From: a virus | DNA: 30,651 nt | IMG/VR virus record: IMGVR_UViG_3300031578_000234 | Span: 1-30,651 of that record | Direction: 5' to 3' (one strand) | Part shown: positions 1 to 18,930 of the stretch, piece by piece | Numbering within the stretch: position 1 is the stretch's first letter | Layout of the letters: every line of letters begins with the position of its first letter | Program-made: the position numbers and the translations under genes | The notes under the pieces: generated by a model | The model's database searches: none | The model's input: the letters and a program-made list of their open reading frames with translations, nothing else | Told to the model about the DNA's origin: nothing

Positions 1-75
1 CTATTACTACTAGTATTATTACTAGTACTACTATTATTACTATACGTTTACTATATGTATTATATTACTACTACC
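1..75. repeat. CTA/ACT/ATT triplet-rich tract (left copy)
   Basis: The first ~70 bases are almost entirely overlapping ACT, ATT, AGT and TAC triplets. Positions 21-34 (actagtactactat) are a perfect 14-bp inverted match to 1140-1153. Similar triplet tracts recur at about 161-186, 571-632 and 808-826. No gene is visible in it. It may be the left arm of a diffuse inverted repeat around the RHH locus; this is inference. Confidence 0.7.
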
Positions 76-94
76 GGCGGAAAATTCCCCCGCC
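76..94. other. short GC-rich hairpin
   Basis: GGCGG (76-80) pairs with CCGCC (90-94) across a 9-nt loop in otherwise very AT-rich DNA. No T-run follows, so a terminator role is unproven. The rest of 95-220 is AT-rich and shows no gene. Confidence 0.35.
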
Positions 95-220
95 AGGATA
101 GCAAATGAACCCTTAAACAATTAATTTATTTATAAACAAAAAGACTCTAAACACACTACATAGTAATAATATAATAGTAGTATTATACCTATATTCTATA
201 ACATCTAGCAAATTACGTAC

Positions 221-246
221 GCAGTACTAATAGTACTGCCTATAAT
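221..246 (+). promoter_or_regulatory. palindromic operator next to a -10 box, upstream of the RHH gene
   Basis: A 19-bp palindrome (221-239: gcagtacta, central a, tagtactgc) is followed one base later by a perfect TATAAT at 241-246, about 57 bases ahead of the RHH start codon. No good TTGACA-type -35 is visible. A palindrome in the -35/-10 spacer is the usual place for an autorepressor site, so binding by the RHH protein encoded at 304 is a reasonable inference, not shown. Confidence 0.5.
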
Positions 247-254
247 AGTATTGT

Positions 255-288
255 GGGGCAATAAAGCCCAAAGCCCCAAAGCCCCAAA
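255..288 (+). promoter_or_regulatory. leader with one GGGGC and repeated GCCCC partners
   Basis: GGGGC at 255-259 can pair with GCCCC at 273-277 or with GCCCC at 281-285. The segment is a short tandem series of aaagcccc units (263-288). The second GCCCC lies just before the Shine-Dalgarno (aaggag, about 289-295), so two mutually exclusive hairpins could form in the leader. A role in tuning translation is speculative. Confidence 0.3.
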
Positions 289-303
289 TAAGGAGATATA
301 ACA

Positions 304-672
304 ATGAAACAGATTAGAGTAAGAATACCAGAAGACGTACATACATGTATTAAAGTTTACTGTGCTATTAATAATATTAGTATGGATACCTTTATGAATA
401 ATACTATAGATGGAGTTATGGAAATGATAAGGAAAGATTGTTCACATTCTTCTACTACCCCGCCGAAAGTTGCTACGCAATGCAAAGCAATTTCCCCGCG
501 AGTAGAAGAGAACATATGTGAACAATGTGAACAATGTCTGCGAGTGACACTCGAAGAGGTCAGAGACACTTGTACATATTATACGTATATTAGTACTATT
601 ACTACTATTACTATACTTAGTACTATATTATATTATTACCCGCATCAACAACCTCATAACCCACTGGCCTAG
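304..672 (+). CDS. ribbon-helix-helix DNA-binding protein with repeat-derived C-terminus
   Basis: The first ~45 residues read as an Arc/MetJ-type RHH fold: a basic beta strand (MKQIRVRIPEDV) followed by two predicted helices around VHTCIKVYCAINNIS and MDTFMNNTIDGVMEMIRK. A strong ribosome site (aaggagatataac) precedes the ATG. RHH proteins act as dimers that insert the strand into the major groove, typically as autorepressors or partition proteins. After residue ~45 the chain is polar and unlike the family, includes CEQCEQC, and its last ~20 residues come from the 73-bp repeat at 612-684. The protein is therefore either a short RHH domain extended by repeat DNA, or the true gene has lost its original stop. 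The upstream palindrome suggests autoregulation. Confidence 0.65.
   Translation: MKQIRVRIPEDVHTCIKVYCAINNISMDTFMNNTIDGVMEMIRKDCSHSSTTPPKVATQCKAISPRVEENICEQCEQCLRVTLEEVRDTCTYYTYISTITTITILSTILYYYPHQQPHNPLA
537..561. repeat. inverted copy of the TCGA iteron plus a 15-bp direct repeat
   Basis: tctgcgagtgacact (537-551) recurs exactly at 950-964. Positions 548-561 (cactcgaagaggtc) are the exact reverse complement of the 14-bp core of the 19-bp tandem units, for example 729-742. cgagtg-a-cactcg (541-553) is itself a palindrome. All of this lies inside the 3' half of the RHH reading frame. Confidence 0.7.
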
Positions 673-684
673 GTGCAGACGTCA
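612..684. repeat. 73-bp perfect direct repeat, copy 1
   Basis: Identical to 874-946, offset 262 bp. It starts tatacttagtactatatta and ends ggtgcagacgtca. It supplies the C-terminus and TAG stop of the RHH reading frame. The two copies enclose the 19-bp tandem array. No transposase or integrase lies between them. Confidence 0.9.
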
Positions 685-725
685 GAATCGAAATAGGCGA
701 AAGAGTTTGCTTCTTCATGGACTTC

Positions 726-801
726 TTCGACCTCTTCGAGTGTCTTCGACCTCTTCGAGTGTCTTCGACCTCTTCGAGTGTCTCCGACCTCTACGAGCGT
801 A
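726..801. repeat. four 19-bp tandem repeats with helically phased TCGA
   Basis: Units 726-744, 745-763 and 764-782 are identical (ttcgacctcttcgagtgtc); 783-801 is degenerate. Within the array TCGA occurs at 727, 736, 746, 755, 765 and 774, that is every 9-10 bp or about one per helical turn. This spacing suits an array of protein-binding half-sites on one face of DNA. Further copies are at 548-561 (inverted) and 964-979 (degenerate). Confidence 0.85.
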
Positions 802-839
802 CGTCTATATAATAATATTAGTACTAACCAGTAGACGTA
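800..839. repeat. 8-bp inverted repeat with 24-bp spacer
   Basis: tacgtcta (800-807) and tagacgta (832-839) are exact reverse complements. The spacer is AT-rich (ataatattagtactaa). It directly follows the tandem array. Confidence 0.5.
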
Positions 840-873
840 TGTACGTACAGCCGTGTCGTGATATCATATTAAT

Positions 874-946
874 TATACTTAGTACTATATTATATTATTA
901 CCCGCATCAACAACCTCATAACCCACTGGCCTAGGTGCAGACGTCA
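874..946. repeat. 73-bp perfect direct repeat, copy 2
   Basis: Identical to 612-684. It is followed within three bases by another copy of the 15-bp repeat (950-964), so the order of short motifs around the two copies is partly duplicated. Confidence 0.9.
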
Positions 947-949
947 ATC

Positions 950-980
950 TCTGCGAGTGACACTTCGACCTCTGCGAGTC
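950..980. repeat. isolated degenerate iteron
   Basis: Holds the 15-bp repeat tctgcgagtgacact (950-964, also at 537-551) running into ttcgacctctgcgagtc (964-980), a near copy of the 19-bp unit with TCGA at 965. Confidence 0.6.
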
Positions 981-1138
981 AAAGCTTGAAGGTACCGATT
1001 AAATTATAGAAATAGATGACATTCTATACTTAGTAATATGCCAGAATAGAGGTACCCCCCATGCTACCCCCAGAGGGCCTTATTCTACAGTAGTATCACT
1101 CCTATAGATCTGGCGACCAAAAATAGACTTTTTATACA

Positions 1139-1276
1139 TATAGTAGTACTAGTAGTACATATAGTAAGAATACTAATAGTAATACATATATAGTAATACT
1201 AGTAGTATAATACTAATACTAATAGTAATAGTAGTACCAGTACTAGTAGTATAATACTAATAGTATAATATATAAA
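1139..1276. repeat. TAG/TAC/TAA triplet-rich tract (right copy)
   Basis: About 140 bases consist almost wholly of tag, tac, taa and ata triplets. A 22-bp unit (tactagtagtataatactaa then ta) occurs at 1197-1218 and again 44 bp later at 1241-1262. Positions 1140-1153 are an exact inverted copy of 21-34, so this tract and the left-end tract have opposite orientation. No gene or promoter can be assigned. Confidence 0.7.
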
Positions 1277-1291
1277 ATATATCTAGCAAAA

Positions 1292-1603
1292 ATGAAAAAA
1301 TATTCTATAATAAAGGTAGAACCCTTGGCGGGGTATAGAACGGTTGATATGTTAAATACACTCCAAACTAATAATAAATGTTACAACACAACCGTTCAAA
1401 CGATTCGAATCGTTGCTACGCAATACGTAGTAAAGTCTATAGAATATACTGTCCTTCAGCAGTTATTCGTTAGACATAAAAGTGAACACTTAAAAAGTAA
1501 GCGGACGGAACAAGAGTACTCAACTGGCATAGTAGGTCCTCAGCCAGCCTACTTGCCTATTTCCATAACAAACCTTTCCTTCTTAATATTTTACTTAATA
1601 TAG
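1292..1603 (+). CDS. possible small hypothetical protein (doubtful)
   Basis: A 103-residue open frame starting MKKYSIIKVEPLAGYRTVD and ending in a short hydrophobic run (FLIFYLI). There is no clear ribosome site before the ATG, unlike almost every other gene here. The frame runs across a 16-bp palindrome and a 13-bp motif (gttgctacgcaat, 1412-1424) also found at 469-481 in the RHH gene. No family is recognised. It ends at the terminator-like hairpin at 1603, which slightly favours transcription through it. It could equally be a chance frame. Confidence 0.25.
   Translation: MKKYSIIKVEPLAGYRTVDMLNTLQTNNKCYNTTVQTIRIVATQYVVKSIEYTVLQQLFVRHKSEHLKSKRTEQEYSTGIVGPQPAYLPISITNLSFLIFYLI
1399..1430. promoter_or_regulatory. 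16-bp perfect palindrome and adjacent inverted repeat
   Basis: aacgattc/gaatcgtt (1399-1414) is a perfect 16-bp palindrome. It is followed immediately by ctacg-caata-cgtag (1416-1430). Two symmetric elements back to back suggest a dimeric-protein site, but they lie inside the doubtful 1292-1603 frame and no regulator can be assigned. Confidence 0.35.
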
Positions 1604-1640
1604 GTGGGGTCGCCTCCCCGTCCCCACCAAACAAAAAATT
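1603..1640 (+). terminator. terminator-like hairpin closing the left region
   Basis: GGTGGGG (1603-1609) pairs with CCCCACC (1622-1628) over a 12-nt loop. A symmetric A/T run (acaaaaaatttttgt, 1631-1645) follows. It separates the left region from the terminase operon and could act in both directions. Confidence 0.5.
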
Positions 1641-1821
1641 TTTGTTGCCGAAATAAATCTAAACATATGTTTCGGCCTCATAGGTATATAACATTCTTTG
1701 CGGCTTAAAAGACTAACTTAAACAAAAGCTATAGTGTTATGGCCTGGCGCTATAGCAAACAGAATATAATAGGTAGTATTATTTGTATCGATGCTGCCTA
1801 TTTTATTTATAGGAGACAACC
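1641..1821 (+). promoter_or_regulatory. structured leader before the terminase operon
   Basis: Three consecutive inverted repeats: gccgaaa/tttcggc (1647-1653/1670-1676) with the palindrome aaacatatgttt (1661-1672) in its loop; gctatag/ctatagc (1728-1734/1750-1756); and ataggtag/ctgcctat (1769-1776/1794-1801, one GU pair). A TATAAT lies at 1765-1770 without a convincing -35. The ribosome site taggagacaacc precedes the ATG. Candidate roles are late promoter control or a packaging site next to the small terminase; neither is shown. Confidence 0.4.
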
Positions 1822-2277
1822 ATGGCAAGACCTTTTAATCCATTAGCTCATAAGGAGTTTGTAGAATCTGAATTAGATGATATGTTAAGAATTCTTGCAG
1901 AAGAAGAAGCAGCCTTTGTTAAATCAGGTCAAAAGAAGATATATCGTACACTTTACTATAAAGATCTATTTAATAATAGACCATATACATCTAGCAAATT
2001 TAATTATTGGAAAAATAAATTCAGTGATATTACAGCTATTCAAGAAAAACTTGAAAAAATTAAAGAAATAATAGAATCTCGTGTTGTATATTGTGCTGCT
2101 AGAAATAAGATTAATTCTACTTTTGCTATATTCTGGTTAAAAAACCAAGCTTTTTGGAAAGATGTGCAAGATACAAGAGGTAATGTAGAGCATACCCATA
2201 GAGTAGTAAATCTGCCGCCTGAACCAAAAACTATGGAAGAGTGGTCTAAAGGGTTGAAGAAAATGTATAATGAATAA
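1822..2277 (+). CDS. terS: terminase small subunit
   Basis: A 151-residue protein directly upstream of, and overlapping by 8 bases, the large terminase gene. The small subunit recognises the viral DNA packaging site and loads the motor. Its second half carries the pattern typical of phage small terminases, NSTFAIFWLKNQAFWKDVQ (roughly residues 92-114), followed by a Pro/Glu-rich tail. The N-terminal half is charged and helical (roughly residues 10-85) and would hold the DNA-binding and oligomerisation parts. A good ribosome site (aggaga) supports the ATG at 1822, which begins the first gene of the late operon. The assignment rests on the motif, the size and the synteny. Confidence 0.8.
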   Translation: MARPFNPLAHKEFVESELDDMLRILAEEEAAFVKSGQKKIYRTLYYKDLFNNRPYTSSKFNYWKNKFSDITAIQEKLEKIKEIIESRVVYCAARNKINSTFAIFWLKNQAFWKDVQDTRGNVEHTHRVVNLPPEPKTMEEWSKGLKKMYNE

Positions 2278-4822
2278 TGTAAATATCATTTGGGAACCAC
2301 AAATAGGACCGCAGGCCTATGCGTCAGTTTGTCCTTTAGATATTATATTTTTTGGAGGAACGCGAGGAGGTGGAAAATCTGATGCTGCAATTGGGCGTCA
2401 AATTAACGGTGCTCTTAAATATGGATCTCAATGGAATGGGTTAATTCTTAGAAAAAAATATAAAGATTTAGGCGAGTTGTATAAGAGAGTTAGAGAAATT
2501 ATATCACTTGGGTTACCTGCAAAATTAGTTGGTGGTCCCCAACAATCAAATTATTTACGTTTTGATAATGGAGCTCTTGTAACTTTTTCAGCTGTGGTAC
2601 GAAAAGAACAGTTAGACTCTTTTCAGGGCGGCGCTTATACAGAGATTAGTATAGATGAAGCTCCTACATTTTCTTTTATAGGTGATATGATTGAAATGTT
2701 AAAAGGTGCTCTAAGATCTGCGCATGGCGTTCCTTGTCATATGTTCTTAACAGGAAATCCTGGCGGACCAGGAAGTAATTTTATTAAATATATGTTTAGA
2801 ATGAGTGGTGAGAATGCACTTCCCCCAGGCACCATAATAACCGATGAAGAAAGTGGGGAAACGTTAGTATTCATTAAATCAACGCTTGACGATAACCCGA
2901 AACTATGTAATAATGACCCTAAATATGTTAATAGAATTAAATCAATCAAAAATGAAGCTCTAAGAAGAGCTTGGCTATTAGGTGATTGGGATGTTTATAT
3001 AGGTCAGGCTTTTAATTTAAATGAAAAACATATTATTAAACCTATATGGCCTATACCAGAGTACTCTCCAATTTATTTCACTTATGACTGGGGTTATTCT
3101 GCACCGTTTTCTGCCTTATGGTGGTGGGTAGATGCAGATGGAAGAATATATTGTTTCGCAGAATGGTATGGTAGCACAGGAGTGCCTAACAAAGGACTCC
3201 AAATGACCGACCAAGAAGTAGCGAAAGGAATCCTGGAAAGAGAAAAAACCCTAGGTATTAATGATAGAGATATTATAAGGCTATGTGGTCCTGATTGTTT
3301 TAACATGCGCCCTAATGTTGATGGTAGAGGAACTGGACCTTCTACAGCAGAAATATTTCATAATATGGGTATAACTATGCGCCCTGGTGATCCGAGCAGA
3401 ACATTAAAAATTAGGCAATTCTATGAAAGATTATCTATTCCAGAGGATGAATCACTACCAATGTTAGTGGTTTATGATATTTGTAAAAATTTTATTAGAA
3501 CTATACCTTCTCTATGTTTTGATGATTATAATCCTGAAGATATAGACTCTGGTGGTGAAGATCATTGTGTTGATGATCAAACAGAAATATTAACAGATGA
3601 GGGCTGGAAATTATTTTCAGAATTAAATAGAACAGAAGAAGTAGCGACTTTAAATAAAAACGGCAATATAGAATACCAAAAACCATATGATTATGTAGAT
3701 CGTGAGTATGATGGTAAATTGTATTGTCATGATGGTAAAATAAACCTTGCAGTAACAGACGGTCATAGATTTCCAGTTATTAATAGTAATAAAAATATTA
3801 GACCAAGAACTATAAAAGATATTAAAGATAATTTAAATTATCATGCTGTTATACCTAAAATTGGTAAATGGATACCCACAAAAGAATTTAATCCAATAAT
3901 AGATTTAAGATCATTAAAATGTGATAATAATAATGCTAATAATGTAGATGAAATAAAATTGATAGATTTTATGAAATATTATGGATTGTGGTTAGCAGAG
4001 GGATGTTTAGCTTCTTACAAAACAAAAGACTATAAAGCTAAAAAAGGAACTAGAAGATATAATGTTCATATAGACGGAAAAGAAGATTTAGTATCTTTTA
4101 TAAATCCTTTAGGATATAAATATCATATAACTACTACTAAAAGTAATATCAAAAGATATAGTATTTGCAGTAAACAATTTTATACTTTTATATATAAATT
4201 AGCTGGTAAGAGCTATTGTTATAATAAATTTATTCCTAGATGGATGTTAGAATTACCAAAAGAATACTTAAAAGCTTTATATGAAGGTATGATGTTTGGT
4301 GATGGTACGGCTGATATTAAATATGATACAACTAGTGAACAACTAGCTGATGATTTTCAAGAATTGCTTTTTAAGCTTGGTAAAGCTGGCCATAAACATG
4401 CTTATAAACAAAATCATACTCATATTTTAGGCAGAAAAATTAAAAATAAATTACCTATTTATAGAATTAACATATTTACCAAAATAAAGACATGTAGTAT
4501 AGTTACTGATAATATAATACAAAAGCCTTATAAAGGAAGAGTTTATTGTGTTAGAGTGCCGAATGAAACTATTTATTTACGAAGAAAAGGCACCGTATAC
4601 TGGAGTATGAATTGTTATGATTCAGCAGGTCACATATGTATGGCTCGTCCTATAGGACCTAATAACGTAGTAATAAGAGAAGATGTAGAACAAAAGAAAA
4701 GAGACAAAGCATTAGAAAAGCTTGATAATACTTCTTATGCTGCAGCTATGGAATTCCGAGCTACTATGGAAGCGGCCGCTGAAGCAGAAGAAGGTTATAT
4801 AAATTTTTGGTGTGATTATTAA
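2270..4822 (+). CDS. terL: terminase large subunit interrupted by an intein
   Basis: ATP-driven DNA-packaging motor and head-full/cos nuclease. The precursor has 850 residues; removal of a 349-residue intein (433-781) leaves about 501, normal for TerL. ATPase motifs: Walker A GGTRGGGKS (29-37), Walker B SIDEA with D129/E130, and coupling motif FLTGNPGG (159-166). Nuclease motifs: YDWG with D273, CGPD with D342, and the third motif, which is split as GGEDH (428-432) before the intein and CYDSAGH (782-788) after it. When joined it gives the usual EDHxxD pattern. The enzyme cannot have an intact nuclease site before splicing. The start overlaps terS by 8 bases, implying coupled translation. The C-terminus ends FWCDY. 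Confidence 0.95.
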   Translation: MNNVNIIWEPQIGPQAYASVCPLDIIFFGGTRGGGKSDAAIGRQINGALKYGSQWNGLILRKKYKDLGELYKRVREIISLGLPAKLVGGPQQSNYLRFDNGALVTFSAVVRKEQLDSFQGGAYTEISIDEAPTFSFIGDMIEMLKGALRSAHGVPCHMFLTGNPGGPGSNFIKYMFRMSGENALPPGTIITDEESGETLVFIKSTLDDNPKLCNNDPKYVNRIKSIKNEALRRAWLLGDWDVYIGQAFNLNEKHIIKPIWPIPEYSPIYFTYDWGYSAPFSALWWWVDADGRIYCFAEWYGSTGVPNKGLQMTDQEVAKGILEREKTLGINDRDIIRLCGPDCFNMRPNVDGRGTGPSTAEIFHNMGITMRPGDPSRTLKIRQFYERLSIPEDESLPMLVVYDICKNFIRTIPSLCFDDYNPEDIDSGGEDHCVDDQTEILTDEGWKLFSELNRTEEVATLNKNGNIEYQKPYDYVDREYDGKLYCHDGKINLAVTDGHRFPVINSNKNIRPRTIKDIKDNLNYHAVIPKIGKWIPTKEFNPIIDLRSLKCDNNNANNVDEIKLIDFMKYYGLWLAEGCLASYKTKDYKAKKGTRRYNVHIDGKEDLVSFINPLGYKYHITTTKSNIKRYSICSKQFYTFIYKLAGKSYCYNKFIPRWMLELPKEYLKALYEGMMFGDGTADIKYDTTSEQLADDFQELLFKLGKAGHKHAYKQNHTHILGRKIKNKLPIYRINIFTKIKTCSIVTDNIIQKPYKGRVYCVRVPNETIYLRRKGTVYWSMNCYDSAGHICMARPIGPNNVVIREDVEQKKRDKALEKLDNTSYAAAMEFRATMEAAAEAEEGYINFWCDY
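3566..4612 (+). mobile_element. intein with LAGLIDADG homing endonuclease, in terL
   Basis: Protein intron of 349 residues (Cys433 to Asn781 of the TerL precursor). Block A begins CVDDQTEILTDEGWK and block B is VTDGHRF (495-501, T496 and H499). Two LAGLIDADG-type motifs are GLWLAEG (572-578, E577) and EGMMFGDG (672-679, D678). Block F is around GRVYCVRVPNETIYL, and block G ends WSMN before the +1 Cys782. The residue before the final Asn is Met rather than the usual His. Both splice-junction nucleophiles (Cys) are present. The insert is Lys/Asn/Tyr-rich compared with the exteins, hinting at separate origin. Both acidic endonuclease residues are kept, so homing may still work; this is inferred. 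Confidence 0.93.
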
Positions 4823-16825: not shown

Positions 16826-17656
16826 ATGCCTACATATAATCCTTATGCAGATCCTTATAGTACTGGCAATGAAGATTGGGCATCCCCGTCCAGTTATTAT
16901 GAACTACCATATGAATCAAAAGCTGATACAAGTGGAGATATTAGTTATGGAATGTCAAGCTATGATTTAGGGAAAACATATAGTGATCCTGGAACAACTT
17001 TATCAAATGTTAATCAGCCAGCAGGATCACAGATACCATCAATGGATTTTGGTGGTTATCCTATTTTTGGAGAAGAGCCTGCGGCACAAACTACATCAAA
17101 AGCTAAATCAGAGTGGGTGCCTCTACAACCAAGAACTCCTACCGGACAAACATCAACAACCGAATATCAATATACTGGTCCATGGCCAGAAGCTCCTACA
17201 ATATCTCCTTTTACGGCTCCAGAATGGTCAGAGAAAGAAATATCACAATTAACACAAAAGAGAGCAGCTCCTGGATTGAGAAGGTTAAGAAGAACTGCTG
17301 AGAAAGCTTATACACAATATTATGAAAATCCAAATGTGAAGAGAATGACTATACGAGAAGCTCTTAAAGGTCTTGGTATGGGTATGGGTGGAGTGATGGA
17401 AGCAGCAGGTAGGGAAGCTGCAGGCGAGTATGAAGCTAAGTATGGTAGAGAATTTACTGCTGCTGCAACTACGTATCAAGCACAAGTGCAAAAAGAAATG
17501 GCTGAATATCAGGCGCTTATTAGTAAATATATGGCGTCTAAGAAAGCGACTACTACTACACAATATACATATGGTGGAGCGGCTGAAGAAGAATCTAATA
17601 TTTTCAATCCATCATGGTTTCAAAAATCTTTTGGAAATTTAGGGGGTGGAGCATAA
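16826..17656 (+). CDS. ejection/internal virion protein candidate (small)
   Basis: A 276-residue protein with a Tyr/Ser/Pro-rich, disordered first half (residues 1-130, YNPYADPYSTGNEDWAS) and a helical second half: LTQKRAAPGLRRLRRTAEKA (~141-160), a Gly/Met-rich turn (LGMGMGGVMEAAGREAAG, ~180-200) and a heptad-like helix (YQAQVQKEMAEYQALISKYM). The C-terminus is GNLGGGA. A disordered arm followed by Gly/Ala-rich helices fits small ejection proteins that leave the virion ahead of the DNA. The ribosome site is taggagaaaat. The stop overlaps the next gene's start, showing one operon. Confidence 0.55.
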   Translation: MPTYNPYADPYSTGNEDWASPSSYYELPYESKADTSGDISYGMSSYDLGKTYSDPGTTLSNVNQPAGSQIPSMDFGGYPIFGEEPAAQTTSKAKSEWVPLQPRTPTGQTSTTEYQYTGPWPEAPTISPFTAPEWSEKEISQLTQKRAAPGLRRLRRTAEKAYTQYYENPNVKRMTIREALKGLGMGMGGVMEAAGREAAGEYEAKYGREFTAAATTYQAQVQKEMAEYQALISKYMASKKATTTTQYTYGGAAEEESNIFNPSWFQKSFGNLGGGA

Positions 17657-18930
17657 TGAAAAGACCATTTTATGATTATGATGATGAGTTTGCTGATATT
17701 AGTCATACTGATTATACTGATATACCTAGTCCGCCTTCAAAAAAGGCACCACCTTCTAATGAGTTTAATGAAGAAAGCCCTTTATATCAAAAGATTAAAA
17801 ATCGACAAGAAGAAGCTGATAGATTATCACCGCCAATGGAAAGCGAACCAATGCCTCTTCCACCAAGACCTCCTAGATCTTTGGAAAAATTTAATCCACC
17901 AGATTATTCTGATAGAGAAGGCTTTGAAAATCATATATTTAAAGAGATTGGCGGTAATCCTTTTGATATAGACCCAATGCAAGAGGTGAAAAAATCGATG
18001 TCGCAATTACCTCTTTTATTTAGTCATGTATTTAGTGGCAAAATATTATGGGATGATAGAGGACACATGAGTACTAAGCAAGCTGCTTTCTGGAATGATG
18101 TTGTAAATCTATTTCGTGCTAATCAATTAAACGAATCTAATGCAAAGAAACAACAGTTGGTAGATAAGTATAATCGTTTTATGACTATGTGGGATAATGA
18201 TAAAAAATCCTACGAAGCAAAATTAAAAGAGTATGATAAGCAATTGCATGATTGGTATATAGCACAACAACCAACAGAGCCGACAACTGATTTTCAAGTC
18301 TCTTATAAGAAATGGTTAGAAACAAATCCTGCTGGAACCATAGAAGAATTTATTAAGGTTTGGAAGGGCGCAGAGCCGACAACTGATTTTCAAGTCTCTT
18401 ATAAGAAATGGTTAGAAACAAATCCTGCTGGAACCATAGAAGAATTTATTAAGGTTTGGAAGGGCGCTGGAGCTGGTGGTAAACCAAGTGATTTTATGGT
18501 TGGCTATAATGCTGCAGTAGCTAAAATTGAGAAGGTTAATGAAGAATTGCCTGAAGAATCTAAAATAGAAATACCAACTATGGAAGAATATAGAACTAAA
18601 TATTGGTTGAAAGAACCAGGCGGTTTAACAGAAGATAATGTTTTAGAAGAGTTACGTGCTTCGGCTGATTGGAATGACGAAGATACTAATGTGCTTTATG
18701 AAGAATATAGAAAACTTCGTACAGTAGGAAAAGGTATGGGTAGAGAAGAAGCTTATGAAAAAGTTACTAAAGAATCTAAAGATATTATTAAAAAATCAAG
18801 AACGATCACGAGAGAAAAATTTTTAGAATTTTTAAGACAGGAGACTAATAAAAATGGTGGATTCACAAAGAAAGAAATAGATAAAGCTGCTGAAAAATTA
18901 AAAGAGCAGGGTTATATAATACCAGAATAG
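17656..18930 (+). CDS. internal virion protein candidate with tandem duplication
   Basis: The start at 17656 overlaps the previous stop (taATG); the 424-residue product begins MKRPFYDYDDEFADIS. Residues ~1-80 are acidic and Pro-rich, ~110-205 are helical (KQQLVDKYNRFMTMWDNDKK), then two perfectly identical 32-residue units follow (~208-271, each DFQVSYKKWLETNPAGTIEE), and a helical, Lys-rich C-terminus (KSKDIIKKSRTITREKFLEF). The protein lies directly before the two giant ejection-type proteins. No enzyme motif is visible. An ejection or tail-internal role is inferred from order and composition. Confidence 0.55.
   Translation: MKRPFYDYDDEFADISHTDYTDIPSPPSKKAPPSNEFNEESPLYQKIKNRQEEADRLSPPMESEPMPLPPRPPRSLEKFNPPDYSDREGFENHIFKEIGGNPFDIDPMQEVKKSMSQLPLLFSHVFSGKILWDDRGHMSTKQAAFWNDVVNLFRANQLNESNAKKQQLVDKYNRFMTMWDNDKKSYEAKLKEYDKQLHDWYIAQQPTEPTTDFQVSYKKWLETNPAGTIEEFIKVWKGAEPTTDFQVSYKKWLETNPAGTIEEFIKVWKGAGAGGKPSDFMVGYNAAVAKIEKVNEELPEESKIEIPTMEEYRTKYWLKEPGGLTEDNVLEELRASADWNDEDTNVLYEEYRKLRTVGKGMGREEAYEKVTKESKDIIKKSRTITREKFLEFLRQETNKNGGFTKKEIDKAAEKLKEQGYIIPE
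18275..18466. repeat. 96-bp perfect tandem duplication inside a gene
   Basis: Units 18275-18370 and 18371-18466 are identical at every base, including third codon positions, and keep the frame (32 residues). Perfect identity shows a very recent event or ongoing unit gain and loss. The unit starts cagagccgacaactgatttt. Confidence 0.93.

Follow-up and report, generated by a model that had tools for sequence, protein, structure and literature searches.

Genomic context of the spacer

The window analysed here is the whole of IMG/VR virus record IMGVR_UViG_3300031578_000234, a linear fragment of 30,651 bp whose final ORF is truncated by the record end. A compact late operon runs on the + strand from terS (position 1822) and consists of terS, terL with an intein, the portal and major capsid genes, and more structural genes. 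The terminase small subunit (1822..2277, +) matches phrog_309 (E 9e-5) and phrog_37580, while the large subunit (2270..4822, +) is recognised by profile matches. Its intein of ~345 aa (product residues ~433-780) gives a LAGLIDADG-type match, and the two parts of terL that flank it are contiguous in relatives L040, L022 and L075. Portal and capsid are distantly related (20-26%) to those of actinobacteriophages, e.g. Shocker and Jasmine, and share ~40-55% with about 75 uncultured phages. Farther into the window, an exact 96-bp tandem duplication lies at 18275-18467, within the 438-aa ORF 17614-18930.

The opening 1.8 kb of the record is mostly non-coding. Low coding continues past position 1291 up to terS, and the remaining spacer (1292..1821, +) holds an ORF that is non-coding too (1292-1603; codon score -0.08) and several stable hairpins of leader- or terminator-like character (mean local fold z -3.3). 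These hairpins are found at 1560-1820, just 5' of terS, with local z down to -6.3, and could form a terminator or a structured leader.

The RHH gene and its leader

RHH DNA-binding proteins have a strand-helix-helix fold of ~45 residues. ORF 304-672, preceded by a good Shine-Dalgarno sequence (AAGGAG), encodes a protein of the Arc type, whose domain-like part is confined to residues 1-45 (304..438, +) by homologue alignment, AF2, Foldseek and coding-like codons. Unrelated phage contigs L009 and L021 each encode a short homologue (56 and 57 aa) that can be aligned only with these residues. AF2 modelling of residues 1-45 with the three sequences predicts helices at 10-23 and 27-44, where the RHH fold would have them, with the strand unassigned in the monomer model. 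The nearest PDB structures found with Foldseek are mostly RHH proteins (Arc, AtaR, CopASO, AmrZ, CopG), all of them weak matches (E ≥ 0.08). Profile scores are under the curated cut-offs (Omega repressor PF07764, 17.3 vs 33.3; 56B_RHH PF21432, 15.4 vs 27.2), single-sequence AF2 of the full ORF was uninformative, and scans of cellular genomes with the RHH and portal proteins found no relatives.

Codons 46-122 score as non-coding (-0.07); the RHH part scores +0.11, and other genes of the window range from +0.15 to +0.24. This 77-codon 3' part (439..672, +) is built from a hairpin, an iteron in inverted orientation, a triplet tract and the beginning of a 73-bp repeat. The hairpin is a ~90-nt imperfect palindrome directly 3' of the RHH domain (437..527), with z -5.4 as DNA and -5.6 as RNA; 0/200 shuffles were equally stable. 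We infer that repeats overran the end of a gene of 55-60 codons.

In the presumed mRNA leader of the gene lies a perfect palindrome, GCAGTACTAATAGTACTGC (221..239, +), and the leader folds more stably than shuffles do (z -3.2). The palindrome may be an RNA hairpin, an RHH operator, or both. The Rfam family RF02980 (freshwater-2) gives a weak full-length match to the leader at 222-306, ending at the RHH start codon, but its second hairpin is poor in the window and the score of 22.6 bits is under the gathering threshold of 49.9.

Repeats within 1-1291

Repeated 12-mers cover 44% of 1-1291, against a maximum of 7% in dinucleotide shuffles, and the region ranks first in repeat density among 3,475 segments of 1.3 kb drawn from the window itself, from related phages and from a small number of others. 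Repeat search and TRF delimit four tandem 19-bp iterons of unit TCTTCGACCTCTTCGAGTG (724..799, +), three perfect and one with 3 changes. A site scan adds an inverted copy at 548..565 (-) and a lone copy at 963..980 (+), each with 2 mismatches, giving 6 sites in the window versus 0.00 expected. An IMG/VR search with an iteron 18-mer returned 4 matches, all attributable to chance. The two copies of the 73-bp direct repeat (612..684 and 874..946, both +) are exact. An inverted repeat, GTACGTCTA ... TAGACGTATGTAC (795..848), identified from the sequence and the positions of AGACGT and TAGTACTA, encloses a TAGTACTA box at 819. Several further candidates were rejected: the 73-bp repeat as a tRNA-like element (ARAGORN and Rfam negative), CTAGCAAA repeats at 201, 1278 and 1986 (comparable 14-mer matches arise by chance), and matches to mir-12 and MIR4239, which are low-complexity chance hits.

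The region also holds degenerate tracts of TA-N triplets. In runs of at least four, 85 units are present in the region, whereas shuffles have a mean of 3.4 and a maximum of 17. The first tract (1..75) begins at the contig edge, has 14 units at 2-43 and a third base rich in C/T, and is also delimited by TRF; a TAGTACTA palindrome occupies 23-30. Run counts place short tracts 5' of the RHH gene (161..186, in runs at 161-172 and 175-186), and another overlaps the 3' end of the RHH ORF (577..638, 9 units at 588-614). The longest (1141..1267; repeat search, TRF, run count) has more G than C at the third base and is self-complementary. A preliminary description had reported an RHH gene with its own palindrome, iterons in two orientations and a 73-bp repeat in a low-coding region, all of which hold. 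It had also reported triplet tracts facing in opposite directions at the edges. The tracts are real, but the opposition is weak: third-base C/G counts are 13/4 on the left and 11/17 on the right, and the 79% inverted identity of the two is not telling, because any two independent TA-N tracts give ~79% by construction.

Another assembly of this phage, L011, is 99.99% identical and begins at window position 1350, so that 1-1349 is backed by a single assembly. This late start, together with a contig that opens within a repeat tract, raises the possibility that the first 1.35 kb is an assembly artefact or chimera. However, the repeats are shorter than the usual read length, the RHH gene is intact, and the window contig passes through the region unbroken. 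We consider an artefact quite improbable.

A common spacer with lineage-specific content

We compared 41 loci of other phages with a similar terL, each with at least 0.9 kb of sequence before it. Many of them have ORF-free gaps of 350-840 bp before terL, and some carry their own unrelated tandem repeats or low-complexity runs there (L029, L047, L067/L081/L085, L076). The frequency of such gaps, some filled with other repeats, indicates that a spacer is common at this position and that its content changes. One of these gaps, upstream of the terminase genes in L029 (1467-1538), holds a perfect 16-bp unit (TACCAGGTGACGACGC) repeated in tandem four and a half times. Neither the RHH gene nor the triplet tract occurs in any of the 41 loci, and both are likewise lacking from the ~75 phages that share the portal. 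Since no relative has gene or tract, the content is lineage-specific, though the spacer is a habit of the family. The two closest RHH homologues have no repeats around them. This goes part of the way towards refuting the preliminary description's reading, which is only partly supported: the gene does occur without repeats, though in unrelated phages, and the window's own relatives lack gene and tracts alike.

A spacer before terS that tolerates slippage and duplication could accumulate tracts, iterons and the 73-bp copy as by-products, with the RHH gene as unrelated cargo whose 3' end was overrun. Repeats do invade the RHH ORF, the last 77 codons of which become non-coding; relatives lack the region, and some have other, unrelated low-complexity runs in its place; and the exactness of the 73-bp copy suggests recent duplication. 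Among the matches listed in the triplet-tract scans described below, simple tracts of either type precede terL in ~19-28% of non-coding cases, and therefore such DNA accumulates there. On the other hand, several distinct repeat kinds co-occur with perfect palindromes, and the RHH frame is intact and retains its good Shine-Dalgarno sequence. Passive growth of this kind is a serious contender that falls short of an even chance, and it ranks close behind a self-regulated RHH repressor.

GTAC-centred palindromes and the proposed regulation

Dimers of Arc, MetJ and CopG recognise series of short palindromic boxes. All 6 copies of the GTAC-centred palindrome TAGTACTA in the record fall within 1-1291, leaving none for the remaining 29.4 kb, and 0/1000 shuffles reach 6; AGTACT occurs 9 times versus a shuffle mean of 1.5. 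The TAGTACTA palindromes are our candidate RHH sites. The leader palindrome and TA-N runs lie ~65-145 bp 5' of the start of the RHH gene. That the RHH protein, placed amid site arrays beside the terminase operon, acts on palindromic sites, as had been suggested, appears reasonable. The resemblance to the Arc, CopG and MetJ repressors extends to the predicted fold, the palindrome in the gene's own leader, and the short palindromic boxes in series. It differs in that the window protein scores below every family cut-off and its boxes are embedded in triplet tracts.

We propose that a small, probably acquired RHH regulator gene sits in a lineage-specific, non-coding spacer before the terminase (late) operon. 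A dimer of its product would bind the GTAC-centred palindromes, both TAGTACTA and a double site, CAGTACTAATAGTACTG, in its own leader, and would thereby repress its own promoter. It might further coat the spacer as a nucleoprotein patch, altering how readily transcription enters the adjacent terminase region or how accessible that region is. The iterons and the 73-bp repeat, which have overrun the gene at its 3' end, would either serve as secondary sites or have arisen as repeats expanded. Of the readings considered, we tentatively prefer a repressor of the RHH type that regulates itself through GTAC-centred boxes, while rating it at less than an even chance. It is also favoured by the triplet tracts directly 5' of RHH-like genes in unrelated viruses, and by GTAC-centred TGTACAT repeats beside an RHH-coiled-coil gene in halovirus HSTV-1 and its relative L164, both described below. 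Against it, the closest homologues, L009 and L021, lack triplet runs and are GTAC-poor, and the enrichment of TAGTACTA follows in part from the TA-N tracts themselves. Promoter-like sites show no excess over shuffle expectation, and the full arrangement is seen in one genome only.

Partition, packaging and replication

RHH partition systems (ParG, ParR or omega) pair with a partner NTPase, ParA/ParF or ParM, and use a contiguous short-repeat centromere. The preliminary description had raised such a centromere-like role, and an RHH protein accompanied by arrays in both orientations, with weak similarity to ParG (E 0.32) and omega (E 0.006), could be read as a centromere-binding protein with its array. 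These similarities are far under the family cut-offs, however, and partition is unlikely because the deviant Walker-A motif of ParA-type proteins, KGGxGKT, is absent from the window fragment and from ~74 related loci; nor is there any sign of a plasmid-like state. The ParB (omega)/parS system of pSM19035 likewise has a small RHH protein and repeats in both orientations, but its array needs contiguous 7-bp heptads in parS (PMC9499535). The window instead has 19-bp units that are not contiguous heptads, has no ParA-type motif, and scores 17.3 against the PF07764 cut-off given above. Partition is the least credible of the readings considered, and the centromere idea is not supported.

Cos and pac sites, at which terminase recognises and cuts DNA, often precede terS, and in iteron replication origins the iterons adjoin a Rep initiator gene. 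The iterons and tracts lie immediately before terS-terL, the 19-bp units are directly repeated, and in some relatives this position is occupied by tandem repeats of another kind, so the array might be an iteron origin or a pac/cos-type region recognised by the small terminase subunit. Relatives share no conserved motif, however, and no replication initiator was found among the profiled window genes, with skew uninformative at a contig edge. From these sequence features, a packaging site or origin seems unlikely, although it is a better candidate than partition.

A wider link between TA-N tracts and terminase was also sought in IMG/VR. The TA-N pattern occurs at no fewer than 119 loci, with 43 non-coding tracts among the matches listed, and a composition-matched AT-N (ATS) control at 120 loci or more, with 16. 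Among these listed tracts, 12/43 lie before terL, compared with 3/16 for the control (Fisher p 0.74). The association looked strong by itself but is no stronger than that of the control; there is no specific terminase link, and TA-N tracts as terminase-linked packaging sites were rejected.

Triplet tracts beside RHH-like genes in other viruses

The same scan bears on whether the gene-plus-repeat layout recurs. Among the matches listed, the first gene downstream has an RHH-like N-terminus at ~11/43 TA-N loci versus 0/16 control loci, as judged by eye and unblinded. The loci concerned are L111/L163, L124/L193, L129, L144, L146, L160, L164, L188, L192, L197 and L203; the gene starts within ~40-230 bp of the tract, and the RHH-like start usually precedes a coiled coil. 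L124, L188, L192, L160 and L197 form one homologous family in which the tract is followed by the RHH-coiled-coil gene and then by terL. A regular expression built by hand for RHH domains, which misses the window RHH protein, matched 6/51 next to tracts among the matches listed against a background of 59/2617 (p 0.001), with 5/6 from one family. Pfam and PDB profiles did not recognise the tract-adjacent RHH-like domains, except for CcdA (E 0.004) at L111. Like the window, L124/L193, L188, L192, L160, L197, L129, L146, L164 and L111 have a TA-N tract directly upstream of the gene, with terL next in one family; their proteins mostly have a coiled coil, whereas the window protein has none, and it shows no sequence similarity to the one such family compared (hhalign probability 1%). 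The layout expected by the preliminary description is absent from relatives but has a counterpart in unrelated viruses among the matches listed, so the gene-plus-repeat idea stays alive. We regard the pairing of tract and RHH-like gene in several unrelated viruses as a suggestive lead.

Some of these loci have features of their own. Gp44 of the halovirus HSTV-1 (L335) is an L164-type gene without a tract, followed by TGTACAT repeats; GTAC-centred palindromic repeats of this type flank the homologous RHH-coiled-coil genes of L164 (4540-4600) and HSTV-1 (2670-2720), both of which adjoin a DNA helicase gene. L160, L188, L192, L193/L124 and L197 come from uncultured, possibly archaeal viruses, some with TTTAAATA promoter-like boxes; here a (TAC)n or (TAG)n tract is followed by the RHH-like coiled-coil gene and then terL, making the gene products candidates for unusual small terminase subunits. 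Three related phage contigs (L104:4286, L145:957, L202:7393) carry a near-identical mixed TAC/TAG palindromic intergenic element ~2.3-2.8 kb 5' of terL.

Unusual small terminase subunits are difficult to identify from sequence, above all those of archaeal viruses. A broader proposal is that viral RHH proteins repeatedly use mixed TAC/TAG TA-N tracts as a cis-element, across bacterial and archaeal tailed viruses that are unrelated to one another. In the family with tract, RHH-coiled-coil gene and terL, the RHH protein might replace the small terminase subunit, with packaging at the tract; the phage form of the arrangement would then be seen in the window, its RHH gene ringed by tracts. We hold this to be improbable.

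The region is a real, lineage-specific oddity and most likely a regulatory spacer under its own control; it shows no sign of a partition machine. Our best, if still tentative, reading is that the phage acquired an RHH module, which regulates itself within a spacer that evolves fast. Should the TAGTACTA boxes prove to be bound by the RHH protein, this would be a compact, one-protein nucleoprotein control region adjoining the terminase operon. If the pairing of tracts with RHH-like genes proves true, the triplet repeat would offer a simple sequence handle by which to locate RHH regulators of viruses or small terminase subunits of an unusual kind.
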